In this document: positions 231-61,867 of the stretch, piece after piece
Position numbering within the stretch: position 1 is the first letter of the stretch
Layout of the letters: each line of letters starts with the position of its first letter
Origin: Actinomycetota bacterium
GTDB taxonomy: Bacteria; Actinomycetota; CADDZG01; WHSQ01
Length of the DNA: 64,000 nt
NCBI GenBank assembly: GCA_030447315.1
Contig: JAUJPD010000004.1
Location: 55,340-119,339, forward strand
Direction of reading: 5' to 3'
Program-made: the position numbers and the translations under genes
Notes under the pieces: generated by a model
Databases searched by the model: none
What the model was told of the DNA's origin: nothing
What the model saw: the letters and a program-made list of their open reading frames with translations, nothing else

Positions 231-1894
231 GCGAGGTTCGAGGAACGCGGGTACGCGACCTCGGGGTCGGTCAGGACGTTCACGACCGTCGGCTCGCCCG
301 ACTCGAAAGCTCGCTTCAGGGCGGGAGCGATGGCATCCGGCTCGGTCACGAGCTCGCCCCGCCCCCCGAACGCCTCCATCATCAGGTCGTAACGGATGCC
401 GGGACGAAGGTCCGCCGCCACGTCGTAGCCATAGAGTCCTCGCATCGGGTGCTTCTCCAAACCCCAGATCCCGTTGTTGCCGACGATGCACACGACCGGA
501 AGCTTGTGGCGAACGAAGGACTCGAGCTCGGTTCCCGCGAACCCGATCGCGCCGTCCCCGTACAACAATGCGATCTGCCGGTCCGGATGCGCGAGGCGCG
601 CCGCCATCGCATATCCCGGGCCGACCCCGAGACAGCCGAAGGGTCCCGGGTCGAGCCAGCAGCCGGGCTCGTAGGAGGGAACCTCTCGCCCTGCATAGGA
701 CACGAAGTCACCACCGTCGCCGATCACGATCGCATCGCGCTCCAACAGGGGAACCAGCTCACCGTAGATGCGCATGGGGTGGATCGGGTTCGAGTCCGAT
801 AGCAACTCGGCCTGAGCCGGCGCTCGTTTCTGCTCCTCGGTCTCCGACAGGGCTTCGATCCAGGCCTTGGTGTCCGCGGGGCCGTCGATGGCGTCGGCCA
901 GTGCCGCGAACGTGCCCGCCAAAGGAGCTCCCATCGAGGCCGCGAGCTCGACGTGGCGAGCGACCAGGTCGGGATGCGAGTCGAGGTGCACGAGGTTGGC
1001 GAGACCTTGACCAAAACCCAGCCGGAAGTCCAGCGGCGTCCCCGCCACGATCACCAGGTCGGCTTCTTTCAAGCCGCGGGAGCGGGCGCGCGAGAAAGCG
1101 AGCCTGTGATCGGCCGGCACGCACCCGCGCCCCTGGCCGTTGGCGAACACGGGGACCTCGGCGGCCTCGACCAAGCTGCGCAACGGCCCCTCGGCCCGGT
1201 CCATGAAGACGTTCGATCCGGCGATCAAGATCGGGCGCTCGGCCCTACGGATGAGTTCCGCGATCTTCTCGATCGCGATGTGATCGATGGCGGGTGCCTC
1301 GGCAAGATCGGGGGCCTCGAAGCCGAGTCCCGCCTGGTTGAACACGACGTCTAGAGGGAAGTCGAGGAACCGGGGGCCGCGCGGCGCGGTCACCGCATCG
1401 AGCACGGTGGCCACGATGTCGCTTCCCACCATGGAGGTGTCGGTCACGGTACGGGCGGGCGCAACGGGATCGACGAAGGGAACGTGGTCCATCTCCTGCA
1501 GCGATCCCTGCCCCCATCTGAACGCCGGCGCCCGGCCTCCGAGAACCACCACGGGAGCGCGGTTGGCACCGGCCTGTGCGAGCGGGCTGATGACGTTGGT
1601 CACTCCCGGACCGGCGGTCACGGCCGCGACACCGACCGTGCGGGTGAGCCTGGCCCAGCCCTCGGCCCCGAACGCCGCGTTGGCCTCGTGGCGCGTGTCG
1701 ACGAGCCGGATCCCTTCTTGGTGACAGCCATCGAGGAAGGGAAAGATGTGCCCTCCACTCAGCGTGAAGACGTGCGAGACCCCCAGCGCCTTCAGGGCCT
1801 TAGCGGCGATCAGGCCCCCATGACCCTGACCCTCGAGAGCAGCCCCGGCGCGGCGCAGCTCGGCAACCTCCGGGACCCACCCACGCTCGACCAT
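227..1894 (-). CDS. Thiamine pyrophosphate-dependent enzyme, acetolactate synthase-like (IlvB family)
   Basis: 555 aa ORF; LKALGVSHVFTLSGGHIFPFLDGC, RHEANAAFGAEGWARLTRTVGVAAVTAGPGVTN and C-terminal TPP motif GDGAIGF...NNGIWG. Confidence 0.85.
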   Translation of the reverse strand: MVERGWVPEVAELRRAGAALEGQGHGGLIAAKALKALGVSHVFTLSGGHIFPFLDGCHQEGIRLVDTRHEANAAFGAEGWARLTRTVGVAAVTAGPGVTNVISPLAQAGANRAPVVVLGGRAPAFRWGQGSLQEMDHVPFVDPVAPARTVTDTSMVGSDIVATVLDAVTAPRGPRFLDFPLDVVFNQAGLGFEAPDLAEAPAIDHIAIEKIAELIRRAERPILIAGSNVFMDRAEGPLRSLVEAAEVPVFANGQGRGCVPADHRLAFSRARSRGLKEADLVIVAGTPLDFRLGFGQGLANLVHLDSHPDLVARHVELAASMGAPLAGTFAALADAIDGPADTKAWIEALSETEEQKRAPAQAELLSDSNPIHPMRIYGELVPLLERDAIVIGDGGDFVSYAGREVPSYEPGCWLDPGPFGCLGVGPGYAMAARLAHPDRQIALLYGDGAIGFAGTELESFVRHKLPVVCIVGNNGIWGLEKHPMRGLYGYDVAADLRPGIRYDLMMEAFGGRGELVTEPDAIAPALKRAFESGEPTVVNVLTDPEVAYPRSSNLA

Positions 1895-2049
1895 CGCCGG
1901 AGCCTACCGACTCGAGGTGGCCCGCCCACGCCTACTGTGGGTTCATCCCAGAACGGGGAGGCCTGCAGCAGGCGAGATCGAGCTGGAGGAGGCAGAGAGA
2001 GCCTCCGGAAACTTGGCCTTCACACTCCCGAGCGAGGACGGACGGGCCC

Positions 2050-2118
2050 GGAGGGAGCCTCCGCAGGAACTGCTCGCTTCAGCGAGCCGTTCCGAGGACC
2101 GCGACCGGAGGGTCCGGC
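2050..2118 (+). repeat. Dispersed palindromic repeat, copy 1
   Basis: GGAGGGAGCCTCCGCAGGAACTGCTCGCTTCAGCGAGCCGTTCCGAGGACCGCGACCGGAGGG; hairpin arms 2066-2077/2082-2093 with one mismatch, TTCA loop; similar to copies at 33.9 and 51.3 kb. Confidence 0.8.
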
Positions 2119-2131
2119 CATCCGAGCGAGG

Positions 2132-2434
2132 TTATTCGCCGTCGCTGACCCAGCGGGTGCCGCCGGTGTCTCCGCTGGCGGCCGTCTCGCTGGAGGAACG
2201 CCTGATCACGTGGTCGTCATCGGGCTCGAGGTCGTAGGCCTCGGCGGTGCGCGCGGACTCTTCCAACATCCTGCGGGCGGTGCGGCGAGCGGCCTCGAGC
2301 GACCCGTCGGTGGCCCGACCGTTGTCGTCGGTCTCCCGCAGAAGCTTCTGAGCGAGACTCTCGACGCGCTCGTCCAGTCCCGGATCGCTCTTGGCGTCGG
2401 CGACGTAGTATTCCGGCTCGGCGTTGTCGGCCAT
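2132..2434 (-). CDS. Hypothetical protein
   Basis: 100 aa acidic ORF starting 19 nt downstream of the korB-like stop, same strand. Confidence 0.55.
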   Translation of the reverse strand: MADNAEPEYYVADAKSDPGLDERVESLAQKLLRETDDNGRATDGSLEAARRTARRMLEESARTAEAYDLEPDDDHVIRRSSSETAASGDTGGTRWVSDGE

Positions 2435-2452
2435 CGCTCCAGAGTCTCCCGT

Positions 2453-3514
2453 CTAGTCCACTGACCAGGTGTCGCCTGACCCGAGCAAGCGGGAGAGGTC
2501 GCCGGGGCCCTGCTGTTCGGCCGCCACCCGTAACTGCTGCTCCATTCCATCTCCGTAGACGGGACGCTGCACGTCCCGGAAGACACCGATGGGCGTCGGT
2601 TCGCTCGGGCCGGATGCGATGCGAGAGAGGGCGAAGGCGAGGCTGGGATCGTCGCGATGCTCGTCGTGAACGAGCAGATCGCCCTCTCCGACCTCGGCCA
2701 CGTCCACAACCTCGGCGCGGCCCTCACTCGTCATGCGAACCCCTTTCTCGTTGCCGGCGCCGAACCTGATCGGCTTGCCGTGCTCGAGGTAGATGCGGTT
2801 CTGAGAACGTCCCTCTTTGCCGGTAAGAGCTACGAAGGCGCCGTCATTGAAGATGTTGCAGTTCTGGTAGATCTCGATGAAGGCCGACCCGCGGTGCTCG
2901 GCCGCCCTCTGGATGATCTGCGGCAGATGCTTGCGCTCGACGTCCAGGGTGCGCGCGACGAAAGTGGCCTCGGCCCCCAGCGCGAGGGCCACCGGGTTGA
3001 AGGGATGCTCCAAGGAGCCGAAGGGGGTCGACTTCGTCACCTTGCCCTTCTCCGACGTGGGCGAGTACTGGCCCTTGGTCAGCCCGTAGATCTGGTTGTT
3101 GAAGAGCAGGATCTTGAGGTTGACGTTGCGCCGCAACGCGTGGATGAAGTGGTTGCCGCCGATGGACAACCCGTCGCCGTCGCCGGTGACCACCCACACC
3201 TGCAGGTCCGGCCGCGCGGTCGCGACGCCGGTCGCGATCGCAGGGGCTCGTCCATGGATGCCGTGGATCCCATAGGTGTTCATGTAGTACGGGAAGCGAC
3301 TGGAGCAGCCGATGCCCGACACCCACACCATCTTCTCGGGAGGGACCCCGAGCGACGGCATGGCGCTTTGGACGGCGGCGAGGATCGCGTAGTCGCCACA
3401 TCCCGGACACCACCGAACCTCTTGGTCGGAGACGAAGTCGTCGCGGGTCAGGGTGCCGACGTTCGAGGCCTCGGTGATGCCGCGCTGGTCGCCGGGATTC
3501 GCGTTGAGCGTCAT
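2453..3514 (-). CDS. korB: 2-oxoacid:ferredoxin oxidoreductase, beta subunit (KorB-like)
   Basis: VRWCPGCGDYAILAAVQ, GIGCSSRFPYYMNTYGIHGIHGRAPAIATG, GDGDGLSIGGNH; start overlaps korA stop (ATGA). Confidence 0.93.
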   Translation of the reverse strand: MTLNANPGDQRGITEASNVGTLTRDDFVSDQEVRWCPGCGDYAILAAVQSAMPSLGVPPEKMVWVSGIGCSSRFPYYMNTYGIHGIHGRAPAIATGVATARPDLQVWVVTGDGDGLSIGGNHFIHALRRNVNLKILLFNNQIYGLTKGQYSPTSEKGKVTKSTPFGSLEHPFNPVALALGAEATFVARTLDVERKHLPQIIQRAAEHRGSAFIEIYQNCNIFNDGAFVALTGKEGRSQNRIYLEHGKPIRFGAGNEKGVRMTSEGRAEVVDVAEVGEGDLLVHDEHRDDPSLAFALSRIASGPSEPTPIGVFRDVQRPVYGDGMEQQLRVAAEQQGPGDLSRLLGSGDTWSVD

Positions 3515-5367
3515 AGGTGTTTGATCAGCTCCTCTTCTAGGTCGCCCGCCCGGAAAGGCAGGCCCTTCATCTTGTTGATGGGGATCACGTCGATCAGGAA
3601 GTCGGCTCGGATCAACTTCGAGAGCTGTCCCATGTTCATCTCAGGGATCACCACCTTGTCGAAACGCGCCAGCACCTCGCCGGTGTTCTTGGGCATCGGA
3701 TTGAGGTGCTTCAAGTGAGCGCGCGCGATCTTCTTGCCTCGCACCCTCAGCTTTCGCACCGCCGCGCCGATCGCGCCGTAGGTGGAACCCCAACCGAGCA
3801 CGAGGACGGTCGCCCCCTCGTCCGAATCGAACTCGAGGGGATCGATGTCTTCCTCGATCGCCTTGATCTTGGCCTGACGGAGAAGAGTCATCAGCTCGTG
3901 GTTGTCCGGGTCGTAGGAGATGTTGCCGGTGCCGTCCGCCTTCTCGAGGCCGCCGACGCGGTGCTGGAGGCCGGGGGTCCCCGGGATGGCCCACGGACGA
4001 GCGAGGCTCTCGTCGTCTCGCAGGAACGGCCAGAAGTCGTCACCGGCGTTGGGTTGGGAGGCGAAGCGCACCTGGATGTCCGGCAGCTTCGACACCGAAG
4101 GGATGCGCCACGGCTCCGCCCCGTTGGCGAGATAGCCGTCAGACAAGATGATGACCGGCGTCATGTACTTGATCGCCAGCCGCGCGGCCTCGATGGGCGC
4201 CCAGAAGCAAGACGACGGCGTCCACGCCGCCACGATCGGCAGCGGGGCCTCTCCGTGCCGGCCGTACATCGCGTGCAGGAGATCCGACTGCTCGGTCTTC
4301 GTGGGAAGCCCCGTGGATGGTCCACCTCTTTGGATGTCGACGACGAGCAGAGGCAGCTCCATCGACAGAGCGAGACCGAGTGCCTCCGATTTCAGGTCGA
4401 GGCCGGGTCCGGAGGTCGTCGTGACGCCCAGGTGCCCGGAGAAGGAGGCGCCGATGGCCATGCTGATGGCCGCGATCTCGTCTTCGGCCTGCACCGTACG
4501 CACGCCGAAGTTCTTGTGGCGAGAGAGCTCGTGGAGGATGTCCGAGGCCGGGGTGATGGGGTAAGAGCCGAGGAACAACGGCAACTTGGCCTGCACGGCC
4601 GCGGCGATCAGCCCGAACGCCATCGCCTGGTTGCCCGTGATCCGCCGGTATCTACCGGGGGCGAGGGTCGCCGGCTTGACTTCGAAGGCGCTGAGCTCGG
4701 CGGTCTCACCGAAGGCGTGCCCGGCCTTGAGGGCGGCGATGTTGGCTTGGGCGATGGCCGGCTTCTTCGCGAACTTCTTCTCGAGCCATCCGATGGTGGG
4801 CTCGAGTGGCCGTGAGTACATCCACGACACGACCCCCAGAGCCAGCATGTTCTTGGAGCGCTCGGCCTCCTTCTTGTTGACGCCGGTCTCCTTCACGGCT
4901 TCGCCGGTGAGCTTCGTCATCGGGATCTCGTAGACCTGGTAACCGCTCAGCGACCCGTCCTCCAACGGGTTGGTCGCATATCCCGCCTTGTCCAGGTTCC
5001 GTTCCTCGAAGGCATCGCTGTTCACGATCAGGAGACCGCCCTGGGTGAGATCCTTCAGATTCGCTTTCAGCGCGGCCGGGTTCATCGCCACCAGCACACT
5101 CGGCTGATCGCCCGCCGTGAGGATGTTGTGGTCCGAGAAATGAAGTTGGAACGCGGATACGCCCGCCAGGGTCCCCGCCGGTGCTCGGATCTCGGCCGGA
5201 TAGTCCGGCATCGTGGCCAGGTCGTTGCCGAAAAGGGCGCTGGCGCTGGTGAAACGCTCACCGGTGAGCTGCATCCCGTCGCCGGAGTCGCCCGCGAAGC
5301 GGATCACCACCCTGTCGAGCTCTTTCCGCTCGCCCGTAGGCGGAGCGGCTTGCGCGACCATCGACAT
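3511..5367 (-). CDS. korA: 2-oxoacid:ferredoxin oxidoreductase, fused gamma/alpha subunit (KorA-like)
   Basis: N-terminal RFAGDSGDGMQLTGERFT (gamma domain) and GSYPITPASDILHELSRH...QAEDEIAAISMAIGASFSG (alpha domain). Confidence 0.93.
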   Translation of the reverse strand: MSMVAQAAPPTGERKELDRVVIRFAGDSGDGMQLTGERFTSASALFGNDLATMPDYPAEIRAPAGTLAGVSAFQLHFSDHNILTAGDQPSVLVAMNPAALKANLKDLTQGGLLIVNSDAFEERNLDKAGYATNPLEDGSLSGYQVYEIPMTKLTGEAVKETGVNKKEAERSKNMLALGVVSWMYSRPLEPTIGWLEKKFAKKPAIAQANIAALKAGHAFGETAELSAFEVKPATLAPGRYRRITGNQAMAFGLIAAAVQAKLPLFLGSYPITPASDILHELSRHKNFGVRTVQAEDEIAAISMAIGASFSGHLGVTTTSGPGLDLKSEALGLALSMELPLLVVDIQRGGPSTGLPTKTEQSDLLHAMYGRHGEAPLPIVAAWTPSSCFWAPIEAARLAIKYMTPVIILSDGYLANGAEPWRIPSVSKLPDIQVRFASQPNAGDDFWPFLRDDESLARPWAIPGTPGLQHRVGGLEKADGTGNISYDPDNHELMTLLRQAKIKAIEEDIDPLEFDSDEGATVLVLGWGSTYGAIGAAVRKLRVRGKKIARAHLKHLNPMPKNTGEVLARFDKVVIPEMNMGQLSKLIRADFLIDVIPINKMKGLPFRAGDLEEELIKHL

Positions 5368-55464: not shown

Positions 55465-56061
55465 ATGGCCGTGGCCGAGAAGATCCGTACGCCCCGCCGG
55501 GCGGAGCTGGTGGCGGTGGCGGCCCGACTCTTCTCCGAGCGCGGCTACCACGGAACCTCGATGCACGATCTGGGCAGCGAGCTCGGGATCCAGCGGGGCT
55601 CTCTGTACGCCCACATCGGATCGAAGGAAGAGTTGCTGCTGGACGTCGTCGACGATGGGGCGGACCGGTTCCTGGACCGCGCCGAGCGCGCTCTGTCCGC
55701 GGGGGGCAGCGCAGCCGAGCGATTGCGAGCCCTCCTGATCGGCCATGTCGAGACCGCGACGCAACATCTCGAGGCCTCGACCGTCTTCCTCAACGAGTGG
55801 CGCTATCTCTCTCCGGAGCTGCGCGACCACATCCAGGCCAAGCGCGACCGCTACGAGCACATGGTGCGAGCCGTTATCGAGGCAGGCGTCGCGTCGGGCG
55901 AGTTCCGGGCCGACGCCGACATCCGCTTCGCGGCTACCCTCGTCCTGTCGGCGGGTAACTGGACCTACACCTGGTACCGCCCGGGCGGTGACCTCACACC
56001 CACGGAGATCGGCGAACGTTTCGCAGAGTTGGTGACGAAGGGACTGGAGGCAGGTAAGTGA
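55465..56061 (+). CDS. TetR family transcriptional regulator (PaaR-like)
   Basis: RRAELVAVAARLFSERGYHGTSMHDLGSELGIQRGSLYAHIGSKEELLLDVV HTH; directly upstream of paaA. Confidence 0.93.
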   Translation: MAVAEKIRTPRRAELVAVAARLFSERGYHGTSMHDLGSELGIQRGSLYAHIGSKEELLLDVVDDGADRFLDRAERALSAGGSAAERLRALLIGHVETATQHLEASTVFLNEWRYLSPELRDHIQAKRDRYEHMVRAVIEAGVASGEFRADADIRFAATLVLSAGNWTYTWYRPGGDLTPTEIGERFAELVTKGLEAGK

Positions 56062-56981
56062 CCTACGAAGAGAAACTGGCGCGCTTCAACGCGCACATCG
56101 AGGCGGGCGGGAAGGTCGAGACGGAGGACTGGATGCCAGACGACTTCCGCAACGGCGTTCTCAAGTTCATCGAGATGCACGCGAACTCCGAGATCATGGG
56201 GGCCATTCCCGAGCGCGAGCAGGTCCCTCGGGCCCCCTCGCTCAAGCGCAAGATGTCGCTGACCGCCAAGGTTCAGGATGAGGTCGGCCACGCGCAGTTG
56301 CTGTACCGGGTCGCAGAGGACCTTGGCAAGAGCCGCGAGGCCATGTTCTCCGATCTCGTCAACGGAAAGTCCAAGTTTCACAACGTCTTCCACTACCCCA
56401 CCAAGCACTGGGGCGATGTAGCGATCATCGGATGGTTGATCGACGGCGCCGCCCTGGTGACGCAGGCCGCTCTCTTGGATTCCTCCTACGCTCCCTACAC
56501 GCGCGTCCTCAAACGCATCTGCTCGGAGGAGCAACTCCACCTGCGCCACGGCGAGGACATCTCGCTGGAGCTGGCGTCGGGCACCGAGTCGCAGCGGGCC
56601 ATGTTCCAGGACGCGCTGACCCGCTGGTGGCTTCCGATCATCCACTTCTTCGGCCCGAAGACGAACGTCGAGAAGGATCTGTTGTTGCGCTGGAAGGTCA
56701 AGACGCGCACCAACGAGGACCTGCGTCAGGAGTTCTTGGACCGTTACGTCCCCAAGGTGCTCGAGCTGGGCTTCGAGTTCCCGGCCCCCGTTCCGTTCCA
56801 CGACGAAGAGTCGGGACACTGGCTGATCCGCGACGAGGACATCGACTGGGCTCCCCTGGACGCCATCAAACGCAATCAGGGGCCGGAGACCCAGCGGCGC
56901 CTCAACCTCCGCAAGACCGTCTACGACACGCATCGCTGGGTCCGCGACGCGCTCGCAGGTCCGGCCATCCACGCCGCGTGA
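56058..56981 (+). CDS. paaA: 1,2-phenylacetyl-CoA epoxidase, subunit A
   Basis: IPEREQVPRAPSLKRKMSLTAKVQDEVGHAQLLYRVAEDLGKSRE...HYPTKHWGDVAIIGWLIDGAALV; ATGA-type overlap (GTG) with TetR gene. Confidence 0.96.
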   Translation: MTYEEKLARFNAHIEAGGKVETEDWMPDDFRNGVLKFIEMHANSEIMGAIPEREQVPRAPSLKRKMSLTAKVQDEVGHAQLLYRVAEDLGKSREAMFSDLVNGKSKFHNVFHYPTKHWGDVAIIGWLIDGAALVTQAALLDSSYAPYTRVLKRICSEEQLHLRHGEDISLELASGTESQRAMFQDALTRWWLPIIHFFGPKTNVEKDLLLRWKVKTRTNEDLRQEFLDRYVPKVLELGFEFPAPVPFHDEESGHWLIRDEDIDWAPLDAIKRNQGPETQRRLNLRKTVYDTHRWVRDALAGPAIHAA

Positions 56982-56994
56982 GGCGGAGGCGCTA

Positions 56995-57291
56995 GTGGAG
57001 ACGTGGGAGGTGTTCCGGCGTCACGGACATCGTGAGCCCTTCGAACACTGCGGAACGGTGACGGCGTCAGACCACGAGATGGCGTTGCTGACCGCGAAGG
57101 AGTGCTTCCTTAGGCGGCGAGAGGGCGAGCACCTGTGGGTGGTGCGCAGGAGTGACATCCACTCGTTCCAAGACGAGACTCTCCTCGAGATCGCGGCGGA
57201 CAAGTCCTACCGGTTCAACAGCGGCTACAGAGACGTGGTCGCGAAACGAGAGCGGGCTCGGGCGCGGGCGAAAGAGCTGGCGACTCCATGA
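56995..57291 (+). CDS. paaB: 1,2-phenylacetyl-CoA epoxidase, subunit B
   Basis: WEVFRRHGHREPFEHCGTVTASDHEMALLTAKECFLRRREGEHLWVVRRSDI. Confidence 0.95.
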   Translation: METWEVFRRHGHREPFEHCGTVTASDHEMALLTAKECFLRRREGEHLWVVRRSDIHSFQDETLLEIAADKSYRFNSGYRDVVAKRERARARAKELATP

Positions 57292-58124
57292 ACCAGGTGC
57301 TTGCTTCAGTGCTGACGGCCCTCGGTGACGACGAGTTGATCCTGGGCCACCGCCACTCCGAGTGGACCGGCTTCGCTCCGCACATGGAAGAAGACGTGGC
57401 GTTCTCTTCGATCGCCCAAGACGAGATCGGACATGCCGCCGCTTACTACTCTCTGGCTGCCGTTGAGACAGATGACGACGTCGACCGGATCGCTTTGGGC
57501 AGAGAGAAGAGCGAGTACCGCAATGCCATCCTGTGCGAGCGCGACAACGGCGACTGGGCTTTCACCCTGGTGCGACACTGGTTGTACGACCACGCCGATG
57601 CCATCCGTCTCGAGGCACTGGAGAGCTCCTCGCACGAGGGTTTGGCTGCGCTCGTCACCAAGATCCGCAGGGAAGAGCGATATCACTTGCTCCATGCGGA
57701 TACCTGGTTGAAGCGCGTTACACAAGGCCCGGCGGAGGGGCGTAAACGGGTGGCAGACGCGATGACCCGCGCGTATCCCGAAGCCGTCGCCGTCTTCGAG
57801 CCGTTCGAGGAAGAAGAAGCGGCGCTGGCCCAGGGGTGGATTCCGGTGTCGTCGTCGGAGCTGGCCGCCCGTTTCATCGCCGAGACGTCACAGCAGCTAG
57901 ATGCGCTGGGACTTCCCACGCGATCCGCCGGCCGCTCGGGAGAGGGGGCCGAGTTCGTGGCCTCGTCTTCGGGTGACCTGATCGCGGGGGACGCGGTAGA
58001 CGACGGCAACCCGCCTGCGGAGGATGGGTTCGGTGGCCGCCGCGGACGGCGGACGGCGGAGTTCGACGCGTTGTGGCAAGACATGACATCGATGTACCGG
58101 ACGGATCCGGGAGCGCGCTGGTGA
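57288..58124 (+). CDS. paaC: 1,2-phenylacetyl-CoA epoxidase, subunit C
   Basis: LGDDELILGHRHSEWTGFAPHMEEDVAFSSIAQDEIGHAAAYYSL; ATGA overlap. Confidence 0.95.
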   Translation: MNQVLASVLTALGDDELILGHRHSEWTGFAPHMEEDVAFSSIAQDEIGHAAAYYSLAAVETDDDVDRIALGREKSEYRNAILCERDNGDWAFTLVRHWLYDHADAIRLEALESSSHEGLAALVTKIRREERYHLLHADTWLKRVTQGPAEGRKRVADAMTRAYPEAVAVFEPFEEEEAALAQGWIPVSSSELAARFIAETSQQLDALGLPTRSAGRSGEGAEFVASSSGDLIAGDAVDDGNPPAEDGFGGRRGRRTAEFDALWQDMTSMYRTDPGARW

Positions 58125-58621
58125 CGACACTCGGCACGGTGGAGGACGCGGTGTGGGCTGCCTTGCGCGAGGTGGCGGATCCCGAGATACCCGCCGTCTC
58201 CGTCGTAGACATGGGGATGATCAAGAGCGTCGAGATCGACGGTGACGCCACGGTGGTCACCGTCTTGCCGACCTTCACCGGCTGTCCCGCCATCGCGGTG
58301 ATCGAGTCCGACGTGCGCGCCGCCGTGATGAAGGTCGCCGGCGTCAACGATGTTCGGGTCGAGACCACCTTCAGTCCCCCCTGGACGACCGAGCGCATCA
58401 CGCAAGAGGGCCGCCGGAAGCTGAAGGAGTTCGGTCTGGCGCCTCCGACCGGCGAGGGAGCGGTTCTGATCCAGTCGATCGGTCTACCTGTGGTCTCGAT
58501 ATGCCCGTTCTGCAGCAGCAAGAACACTCATAACGAGAACCCGTTCGGTCCGACACCATGCCGCGCCCTCTATTACTGCAACGACTGCCGCAACCCCTTC
58601 GAACAGTTCAAGGCGATCTAG
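58121..58621 (+). CDS. paaD: 1,2-phenylacetyl-CoA epoxidase, subunit D
   Basis: VADPEIPAVSVVDMGMIKSVEIDGDATVVTVLPTFTGCPAIAVIESDV; C-terminal CPFCSSKNTHNENPFGPTPCRALYYCNDCRNPFEQFKAI; GTGA overlap. Confidence 0.95.
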   Translation: MTTLGTVEDAVWAALREVADPEIPAVSVVDMGMIKSVEIDGDATVVTVLPTFTGCPAIAVIESDVRAAVMKVAGVNDVRVETTFSPPWTTERITQEGRRKLKEFGLAPPTGEGAVLIQSIGLPVVSICPFCSSKNTHNENPFGPTPCRALYYCNDCRNPFEQFKAI

Positions 58622-58650: not shown

Positions 58651-61600
58651 TCAGGAGATACGCCCCGCCGCCACGCGTTCGCGTTGGCCGGCGGTGTTGT
58701 GCAACGAGTCGCTCTGACCAAGGGTTCTCAAGAAGGCGTCGACGATCTCGGGGTCGAACTGCCGTCCGGCGGACTCCTTCAATCGGCGGCAGGCCTCCTT
58801 GACCGGTAATGCCTTGCGATAAGGCCGGTCTGTCGTCATGGCGTCGAAAGCGTCTACCACCAGGATGATGCGCGATTCGACCGGGATGGCAGGCCCCTTG
58901 ATCGCGTCCGGGTAACCGCTGCCGTCGAAGTGCTCGTGACAGTGCCGAACGATAGGCCGCACGTCGGCCAAACGATCGATGGGCTCGAGGATGCGCTCAC
59001 CCAGCTCGGGGTGGGTCTTGATCACTTTCCACTCGTTGGCGTCGAGAGGACCCGGCTTCGCCAAGATCTTTGACGGGATGCCGATCTTGCCGATGTCGTG
59101 GAACAGGGCGCCGAGCTCGAGGCGCTTCAACTCGCTTCCCTCAATGCCGAGCTCGGAACCGACGTCGAGGGCCATATCGGTGATAGAGCGAGCATGGTTG
59201 GAGGTGTACTCATCCTTGGCCTCCAAAGCATTGGCCAGAGCCTCTACGGTTTCGAAGAAGGTGCGTTCGAGACTCTCGAAGCTGACCGCGTTGGTTATCG
59301 CCAGCTTCGCCTGGTGAGCGACACCGGCAAGCAAGCGGATCTTTCGATCTGAGAACTGATAATCCCCCAGTGCAGGGGCAACGGTAACTATGCACCCGAG
59401 ACGACCGTCGAGCTTCAGAGGCGCTACCGCGAACAAGGTGTTCTTCGCGACGTCGGAGGCGCCCGGGATATGCGCCACGTCGCTAGGTCGCAACACGAAC
59501 GGCTCGTCGCGAGCAAGGAATCGCTCCGACATCTCACGATCGATCCTCAGCTCGGCCATACGGCCGCGTTCTGGTTCGACGTAGCCCCATTGCGCCTCCG
59601 GAACGACGTCCCCGGTCTCTACCTCCTGCAACCAGACCGAGGTCTGGGGAGAGCCCAAGATGCGGGCCGACAACTCCACGACCTTCGAAAGAACCTCGTC
59701 CAAGCCTTCTGCGATGGCCAGCTCGCGGCTGAACTCGAGCAGCGAGTTGGAAAGATCTGCGCTCTCTTTCTGCTCCTTGTAGAGGACCGCCTTCTGCATG
59801 GCTACGGACGCCTGATAGAGAGTCCTGCAAGGAGGCGCAGCTTGTCGTCGGTGAAGAAGTCCTCGTGGCCGTTGTAGCGCACCGTGATCCAACCGCATAC
59901 CCCGTGGCCCGAGTGCAGCGGTGCGATCGCGTTGGTTCTCAGCTCCACTCCTGCGGGCGGGTCGAAGAACTCTCGTTGCGCCTCGGCCGAGAGAGTGAAC
60001 GCGCGTTCGAGCCGGTGATGAGACGCTCGGCCCTCTCCTGGGAGACCTGGTACCGGATGATGGGCTCCGACGCCGTTTCTCCCACGTAGCCGGTATGCGC
60101 CGCGCAGGTGAAATCTCCGGTCCGCTGGTCCTGCAACCACAGTGACGCTTGGGCCGTGTCCAGCAACTGTGAAGCCATACGCACCGTCTCGTTGCCGATC
60201 GAATGGAACGAGGCAGCCTTGGACATCAGATCCGAGAAAAGAAGTAACGCTTTGGCGTTCTCGGCTTCCCGTCGCTGAGCTTCGTAGAGGCGAGCGTTCT
60301 CGAGGGCGACAGAAGCGTTGCCCGACAGAACCTCGAGCAACCGAACATCGTCTTCGTCGAACTGGCTCAACCCCAGCTTGGAGATCAGCACAACACCGAT
60401 CACTCGTGATCCGTAGTTAAGGGGCACCGCGACGATCGATTCCTCGATCTCGTCCGTTCCCGGCACCGTGATCGCGTAATCACATTCGAGCGCATTGGGG
60501 ATCAACAGCGATCGAGCGGTCTCGGCCGCATGTCCGGTGATCCCCTCGCCTACCCTGGTGGTCAGGACCTCCGGCGTGTCACCGGCGTAGGCGCCGACCT
60601 CGCCCCGGAAGGCGACGGGAACCAGCAGGTCGTCCTCGCGAAGATAGACGCGGCAACTGTGATAGTCGATCAACGTGCGCAGCTCATTGGCGATCGTCAT
60701 GCCGATCTGGCGCACGTCGTTGAGGCGGTTCAGCTTGCCCGAAAAGCTCTGGAGCATCTTCAGGTGCGCGATGGACCGCACATCCTGCCGAACGGCGCCG
60801 GTATCGATACATTGCGTGGCCTCGTCGTTGAACAGAACGATGCGGTTCTTGCCCCGAGACTTGGCGCTCAACATCGCGGCGTCGGCGCAAGCAACGAGCT
60901 CGCGGGGGTTCATTGCATGCTCGGGGCCCTGTGCGATGCCGATCGAGAGCGTCACATCTTCGACGGGCTCGAAGTCGAAGCCCCGAACCCTCGTGGCAAG
61001 CCTGCTCGCCAGCCCAAGCGCGTCACCGGCATCACAGGAGGGAAGGATGATGGCGAACTCCTCGCCGCCGATCCTGCAGGGTAGGTCGGAGCCACGGACC
61101 GTCTCTCGCATCAGTTCACCTAGGGCGAGGAGAACCTGGTCCCCTACGGAGTGACCGTGGACGTCGTTGATCTTCTTGAAGTCGTCGATGTCCAACATGA
61201 GCAAGCCGATGGAGTCACGTGATCTGCTGGCGCGCGTGAGCTCAGAGCGAAGCCGCTCGTGGAAGTAGCGATGGTTATAGAGGCCGGTGAGGCTGTCGGT
61301 GACCGCCTGCTGCTCGAGCACGCCACGGATCTGGGCGCTGTCCAGAGCTAGAGCCGCGGCCTCTCCGAACCGCTGAGCGAGCTCGAACTCTTCCTGAGAG
61401 AACGTCGCGTCGTCGCCGATCCGGTAGAGATTGAGACAACCCTTCACCCGGTTGCGGGCGAGAAGAGGGATCACGATGATCGATTCCGGATCTAGTGGGG
61501 TCCCGGGGACGACAAGGACCCGATCGTCGAGGTGAGCCTCGTTGGCGAGCACCGGGCTCCGATGCTGCGCCGCCCATCCCGTCAGTCCCCGTCCGAAGTG

Positions 61601-61867
61601 AGCGCGGCTCTTGAGGATCTCGTCCGCCCACTCGTCACGAGCAAAGACCGGCGTCAACGACTGCTGAGCCTCGTCCGCGGCATAGATGGTGAGGGTGTCG
61701 TAGGGAACGAAGTCATTCAGGGTGTCGGCGATGCGGTCGAGCAGGGAGTCAACGTCCTGGTCGGCCAACACGTGGCTATACAGATCCGCCAAACGCTTGT
61801 ACGACTCGAGTTGCCCCTCGGCCCCCACGACGCCGTCGGGGCCGATCAATGGATCCACGATCGGCAC
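58651..61867 (-). CDS. Multi-GAF GGDEF/HD-GYP signalling protein, split by two apparent 1-nt frameshifts (~60.01 and ~59.82 kb)
   Basis: GAF; GGDEF with RGSDLPCRIGGEEFAIILPS; further GAF segments; HD-GYP HDIGKIGIPSKIL...HCHEHFDGSGYPDAIKG. Pieces in three frames join collinearly (ITGS/ERAFTLSAEAQREFF; LLAGLS/YQASVAMQ). Confidence 0.85.

Follow-up and report, generated by a model that had tools for sequence, protein, structure and literature searches.

Three overlapping reading frames on the minus strand of the window (the whole 64,000-nucleotide stretch of DNA analysed here) raise two questions: whether they are pieces of one gene, and whether the product could both make and break c-di-GMP. 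They run from 61867 to 59939 (642 aa), from 60140 to 59802 and from 59898 to 58651 (415 aa), and they belong to a draft genome assembly of 2.46 Mb in 22 contigs. A preliminary description had taken them for collinear pieces, in different frames, of a single protein of ~1070 aa carrying an internal GGDEF cyclase domain and a C-terminal HD-GYP phosphodiesterase domain.

Three frames, one gene

The translated pieces were aligned with the ORF of L029, the locus of a same-genus relative, which served as reference. Residues 1-622 of the first piece (A) align with residues 143-764 of this ORF (80% identity), residues 48-108 of the second (B) with residues 766-826 (77% identity) and residues 28-411 of the third (C) with residues 827-1207 (83% identity). 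The three pieces thus tile a single ORF head to tail, and the coordinates and collinearity first proposed are borne out. The alignment places the junctions at ~60000 and ~59818, in agreement with the earlier positions. The 1-nt insertions suggested at these sites hold only in the sense of the bases needed for read-through: the window is in fact one base short at each of them, which corresponds to 1-nt deletions with respect to the relative.

A search of 41 genomes with the last piece as query retrieved full orthologs from the window's own genus and its family. The 10 distinct relative loci that we read directly are single ORFs of 1071-1284 codons, each containing GGEEF and HDIGK. Since orthologs within the genus and the family are read as single ORFs, the pieces in the window make up one protein, as had been claimed. 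The pN/pS values of pieces A, B and C (0.19, 0.23 and 0.18) point to equal purifying selection throughout. Exact collinearity of the frames is also what programmed ribosomal frameshifting would require, but one frame encodes the protein in relatives, and the two sites are unlike in sequence, with no common slippery heptamer as judged by eye. We regard this mechanism as having next to no chance of being correct.

Origin of the frameshifts

When ~38 kb of the window was compared with the genome of the same-genus relative, at least five further frameshifts came to light in conserved genes. Single-base deletions were found in the genes for lipoamide dehydrogenase (~19469) and an ABC substrate-binding protein (~12831) and in a neighbouring pair of genes for MlaE-like permeases (~40450 and ~41298, each within a G run), together with a two-base insertion at ~39969; the names of the ABC substrate-binding protein and of the MlaE-like permeases were assigned by reading the sequences, without a family search. 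No second copy of the lipoamide dehydrogenase gene was detectable in the genome; this one is split over two frames, neither of which scores above the curated cut-off. The reverse comparison, for genes intact in the window and broken in the same-genus relative, gave no convincing frameshift over the ~38 kb compared. Both rpoB and valS, checked in the window's genome, are intact; errors are therefore not everywhere in the assembly. A codon-usage scan for frame switches was dropped because operon neighbours were indistinguishable from frameshifts, and the same-genus comparison was used instead.

Because at least five other frameshifts hit conserved genes, including the sole detectable lipoamide dehydrogenase, assembly indels are almost certainly the best account of both splits. 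It had been suggested that the frameshifts, if real, would part the cyclase from the phosphodiesterase; these other frameshifts and the uniform purifying selection over the pieces speak against it. Genuine recent mutations of the strain, leaving a truncated GAF-GGDEF cyclase and, through re-initiation, a free GAF-HD-GYP protein, would give an identical selection signature if pseudogenisation were recent. Moreover, L160, a distant relative (G150, positions 1841-4741, minus strand), has an in-frame TAG between its GAF-GGDEF and GAF-HD-GYP halves, and the same clade includes stand-alone HD-GYPs (L146 and L148). Two independent indels in one gene, the further frameshifts described above and the empty reverse comparison nevertheless make real mutations improbable. 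Gene splits in this assembly are a caution, not to be taken as biology, and the frameshifts matter only in this respect. The locus thus probably encodes, in one gene, a soluble c-di-GMP turnover enzyme with several sensors, and is split here only by assembly indels.

Domain organization

Pfam annotation of the separate frames gave GAF-GGDEF-GAF for the first, the latter half of a GAF for the second and GAF plus HD_5 for the third. The same set is found in the single ORFs of the relatives: five orthologs each have a single GGDEF and a single HD_5, and in four of them the GAF_2 model detects four GAFs. The number of GAFs, which had been left open, is therefore four, with one ahead of GGDEF and three behind. 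GGDEF and HD-GYP share one ORF in the relatives; in this assembly they do not lie in one frame. The features of the gene are collected in Table 1.

Table 1. Features of the split gene, in window coordinates
Feature	Position	Strand	Basis
Complete gene, ~1072 residues, GAF-GGDEF-GAF-GAF-GAF-HD-GYP	58651..61867	minus	three frames here; intact single ORFs in relatives
GAF1, N-terminal	61340..61759	minus	Pfam PF13185/PF01590, piece A residues 37-176
GGDEF domain	60842..61306	minus	Pfam PF00990, E 7.5e-44, residues 188-342
I-site RGSD and active-site GGEEF	61055..61096	minus	sequence; invariant in 14/14 aligned sequences
GAF2	60302..60709	minus	Pfam; boundaries via ortholog residues 387-522
GAF3, cut by both frameshifts, boundaries approximate	59817..60235	minus	Pfam, L029 alignment, ortholog Pfam
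Frameshift 1, one base short vs same-genus ortholog	59999..60003	minus	comparison and alignment with L029
Frameshift 2, one base short vs same-genus ortholog	59816..59821	minus	comparison and alignment with L029
GAF4	59296..59709	minus	Pfam, piece C residues 64-201; AlphaFold2 model
HD-GYP domain (PF13487 HD_5)	58744..59241	minus	Pfam E 1e-39; 4mcw (PmGH) best in PDB by sequence and by fold
HDIGK motif (PmGH H221, D222, K225)	59086..59100	minus	PmGH comparison; 14-sequence alignment
CHEHFDGSGYP, HD-GYP signature with Cys for first His	58910..58941	minus	sequence, PmGH comparison, genome survey
TGT codon, Cys at PmGH H276 position	58939..58941	minus	sequence and alignment

Besides the window's family, the order GGDEF-GAFs-HD-GYP is shown by G126, G184, G150 and G267, and by paralogs in both G012 and G015; in G179 a matching long ORF runs off the end of the contig. 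The internal GGDEF before further GAFs, earlier called an unusual layout, is indeed confined to this one actinobacterial lineage within our sample. Elsewhere among the HD-GYP loci examined, GGDEF was found in five ORFs at three loci, each time immediately ahead of HD-GYP; L077, L096 and L104 have this arrangement, as does L149. These adjacent tandems resemble the window protein in having cyclase and HD-GYP on one chain, but their GGDEF abuts HD-GYP whereas three GAFs lie in between here. GGDEF-HD-GYP tandems have already been described and are mentioned as common, one domain being typically inactive (PMC6205966). The fusion type is thus known, while the GAF-spaced layout and the change of metal ligand described below appear to be new. 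GGDEF-EAL bifunctional proteins likewise combine opposing c-di-GMP activities and sensor domains on one chain (PMC6205966), but their phosphodiesterase is an EAL domain, of a fold unrelated to HD-GYP.

The cyclase half

The GGDEF domain scores 149.8 bits against a curated cut-off of 23.8. Conservation of individual residues was followed in an alignment of 14 sequences, the window and 13 homologs, spanning ~50% divergence. All residues tested against PleD are present (the metal-binding Asp, the guanine-contacting Asn and Asp, RxxD and GGEEF), and the equivalents of PleD D327, N335 and D344 are invariant in 14/14 sequences, as are RxxD and GGEEF. The Asp at the D344 position, found in all 14, is what we take to be the mark of a c-di-GMP cyclase rather than of the Hypr/cGAMP type. 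RxxD, with its invariant R and D, stands five residues upstream of GGEEF (RGSD-LPCRI-GGEEF), the arrangement of PleD and other I-site diguanylate cyclases. PleD is also the best PDB match; its GGDEF is joined to receiver domains, that of the window to GAFs and HD-GYP instead. This string, like HDIGKIGIP and HFDGSGYP in the other half, had been read correctly in the preliminary description.

The HD-GYP half and its replaced histidine

The HD_5 score is 136.5 bits for a curated cut-off of 27.2. By sequence, the best PDB match is 4mcw (E 6.8e-42), the GAF-HD-GYP c-di-GMP phosphodiesterase PmGH of Persephonella marina. An AlphaFold2 model of GAF4 and HD-GYP (mean pLDDT 83.7) led Foldseek to the same entry (E 2.5e-19). 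In this model a long helix connects GAF to HD-GYP, as would be expected for the passage of a signal along a helical stalk. The window protein shares with PmGH the GAF-HD-GYP linkage and all but two of the metal ligands. The ligands H189, H221, D222, H250, H277 and D305 (PmGH numbering) are conserved in the alignment, together with D183, K225 and the GYP loop. The differences are that PmGH is without a cyclase and has E185 and H276, whereas the window protein has a GGDEF cyclase domain, a Tyr and a Cys.

The Tyr, replaced by Leu in one sequence, stands at the position of the trinuclear ligand E185. HD-GYPs with Y/F at this position form a subgroup predicted to be binuclear (PMC4159591), and the window protein would therefore belong to it; a trinuclear E/D ligand defines just one of the two HD-GYP subgroups. 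At the D308 position (read-through residue 1009), where D308A inactivates PmGH, the orthologs have Asp or His, a second departure from PmGH.

The Cys replaces the first His of HHExxDGxGYP. The window reads CHEHFDGSGYP at this point and does not carry the motif with both His ligands; the Cys is absent from the preliminary description, which gave HFDGSGYP only. It is present in 14/14 sequences, that is, the window and all 13 homologs covering the position. A review names an extra His, next to the last motif His, as the seventh ligand by which HD-GYPs extend the HD motif (PMC8177086). Since the first His is replaced, the metal centre should lack this extra ligand of classical HD-GYPs, and the lineage as a whole appears to be without it.

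Distribution of non-His HD-GYPs

Signature matches at the loci compared comprise 67 HHE, 26 CHE and 3 HQE; all 26 CHE matches are orthologs or copies from the window, L091 excepted. A survey of 297 Actinomycetota genomes found CHE in 14 of the 16 that belong to the window's family and in 6 further genomes; HHE, counted in a smaller sample, is present in 48 of 61 genomes. At the same position, Ser is found in two G150 paralogs and Ala in G184, all more distant members of the lineage. A tree computed with the H276 column blanked unites 22 non-His domains, drawn from four actinobacterial families, in a single clade free of His members (support 89); an earlier tree, made without the Ser and Ala members, had given this clade 99/93. 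L091, the one case of CHE outside Actinomycetota among related loci, lies apart from this clade. The clade largely coincides with the internal-GGDEF layout. In the open literature searched, we found nothing to the point on HD-GYP enzymes in which the first His is replaced.

Several variants accompany these proteins. Stand-alone CHE HD-GYPs occur in G272 and G209. Second, shorter paralogs of the fusion are present in G012 and G015 (L151 and L152), again with Cys at the HD-GYP position. The PAS-GGDEF-HD-GYP protein of L149 (4595-6784, G109), which differs in layout, has CHE but is without the HDxGK motif, and its HD site looks degenerate.

A dedicated role of the Cys as metal ligand was considered and is weakened by the Ser and Ala members; as all three residues are found there, ligand loss fits better. 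In PmGH, the H276A mutation abolishes activity (PMC4159591), and the HD-GYP half could therefore be weak or inactive here. The protein would then be a one-way enzyme, whose GGDEF makes c-di-GMP and whose HD-GYP binds it without hydrolysis, as a receptor or feedback domain. Replacement of the first His in every member, its match with the inactivating mutation, the exchange of Cys for Ser and Ala, as though no ligand were needed, and the usual inactivity of one domain in tandem proteins (PMC6205966) are all consistent with this. However, a degenerate receptor should have lost further ligands as well, and over ~50% divergence D183, K225, the GYP loop and the rest of the metal ligands stay (nearly) invariant, which is unusual for a decayed catalytic site. 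We hold one-way function to be rather unlikely.

Genomic neighbourhood

On one side, TetR and the phenylacetyl-CoA epoxidase genes paaABCD face the gene tail to tail; the opposite flank holds genes for a PPOX-class oxidoreductase and an aldehyde dehydrogenase. Wherever the contig allows, TetR-paaABCD, the fusion gene and the PPOX or aldehyde dehydrogenase gene stay together family-wide. Within the window, TetR and paaABCD occupy 55465-58621; no paaE follows paaD, and the C-terminus of PaaD matches a haloarchaeal PaaE model.

This grouping would suit a dedicated regulator of phenylacetate catabolism. However, the unrelated genes for endonuclease III and ispH, taken as a control, are conserved at the same place; the neighbourhood is therefore weak evidence for a pathway link, and the conserved paa neighbours look like general conservation of gene order. 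Members beyond the family are not beside paa, and the open literature searched held nothing to the point on paa-linked cyclases. We set aside the link drawn from synteny as unspecific, housekeeping neighbours being conserved as well, and judge a dedicated phenylacetate regulator to be very unlikely.

Proposed working and significance

Judged from the residues and domain order, the protein is most likely a sensor-gated enzyme with predicted activities that control c-di-GMP in both directions. The N-terminal GAF would gate the diguanylate cyclase, itself feedback-inhibited via the I-site, and the three other GAFs would form a helical sensor stalk gating the C-terminal HD-GYP phosphodiesterase. 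GAF ligands or dimer geometry would decide which activity dominates. Its first His having given way to a small residue, mostly Cys and more rarely Ser or Ala, the HD-GYP would work with a metal centre devoid of the seventh ligand. The analysis shows directly the single ORF of the relatives, the order of domains, the catalytic residues in both halves, and the conservation of the non-His residue and its restriction to one clade; the activity of both halves, the direction of gating and the chemistry of the metal centre are what we infer. More tentatively, we propose as a possibility that these proteins form a bifunctional actinobacterial lineage in which a multi-GAF stalk carries the cyclase at one end and the phosphodiesterase at the other, and the HD-GYP is active without the first HHE His through a six-ligand centre, perhaps thiolate-containing and redox-sensitive.

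If both halves work, the lineage would be a natural test case for the choice between making and breaking c-di-GMP, with separate sensors ahead of each enzyme. The conserved loss of an HD-GYP ligand, at a position that is essential in PmGH, also opens the way to a direct test of which ligands are truly needed for catalysis.
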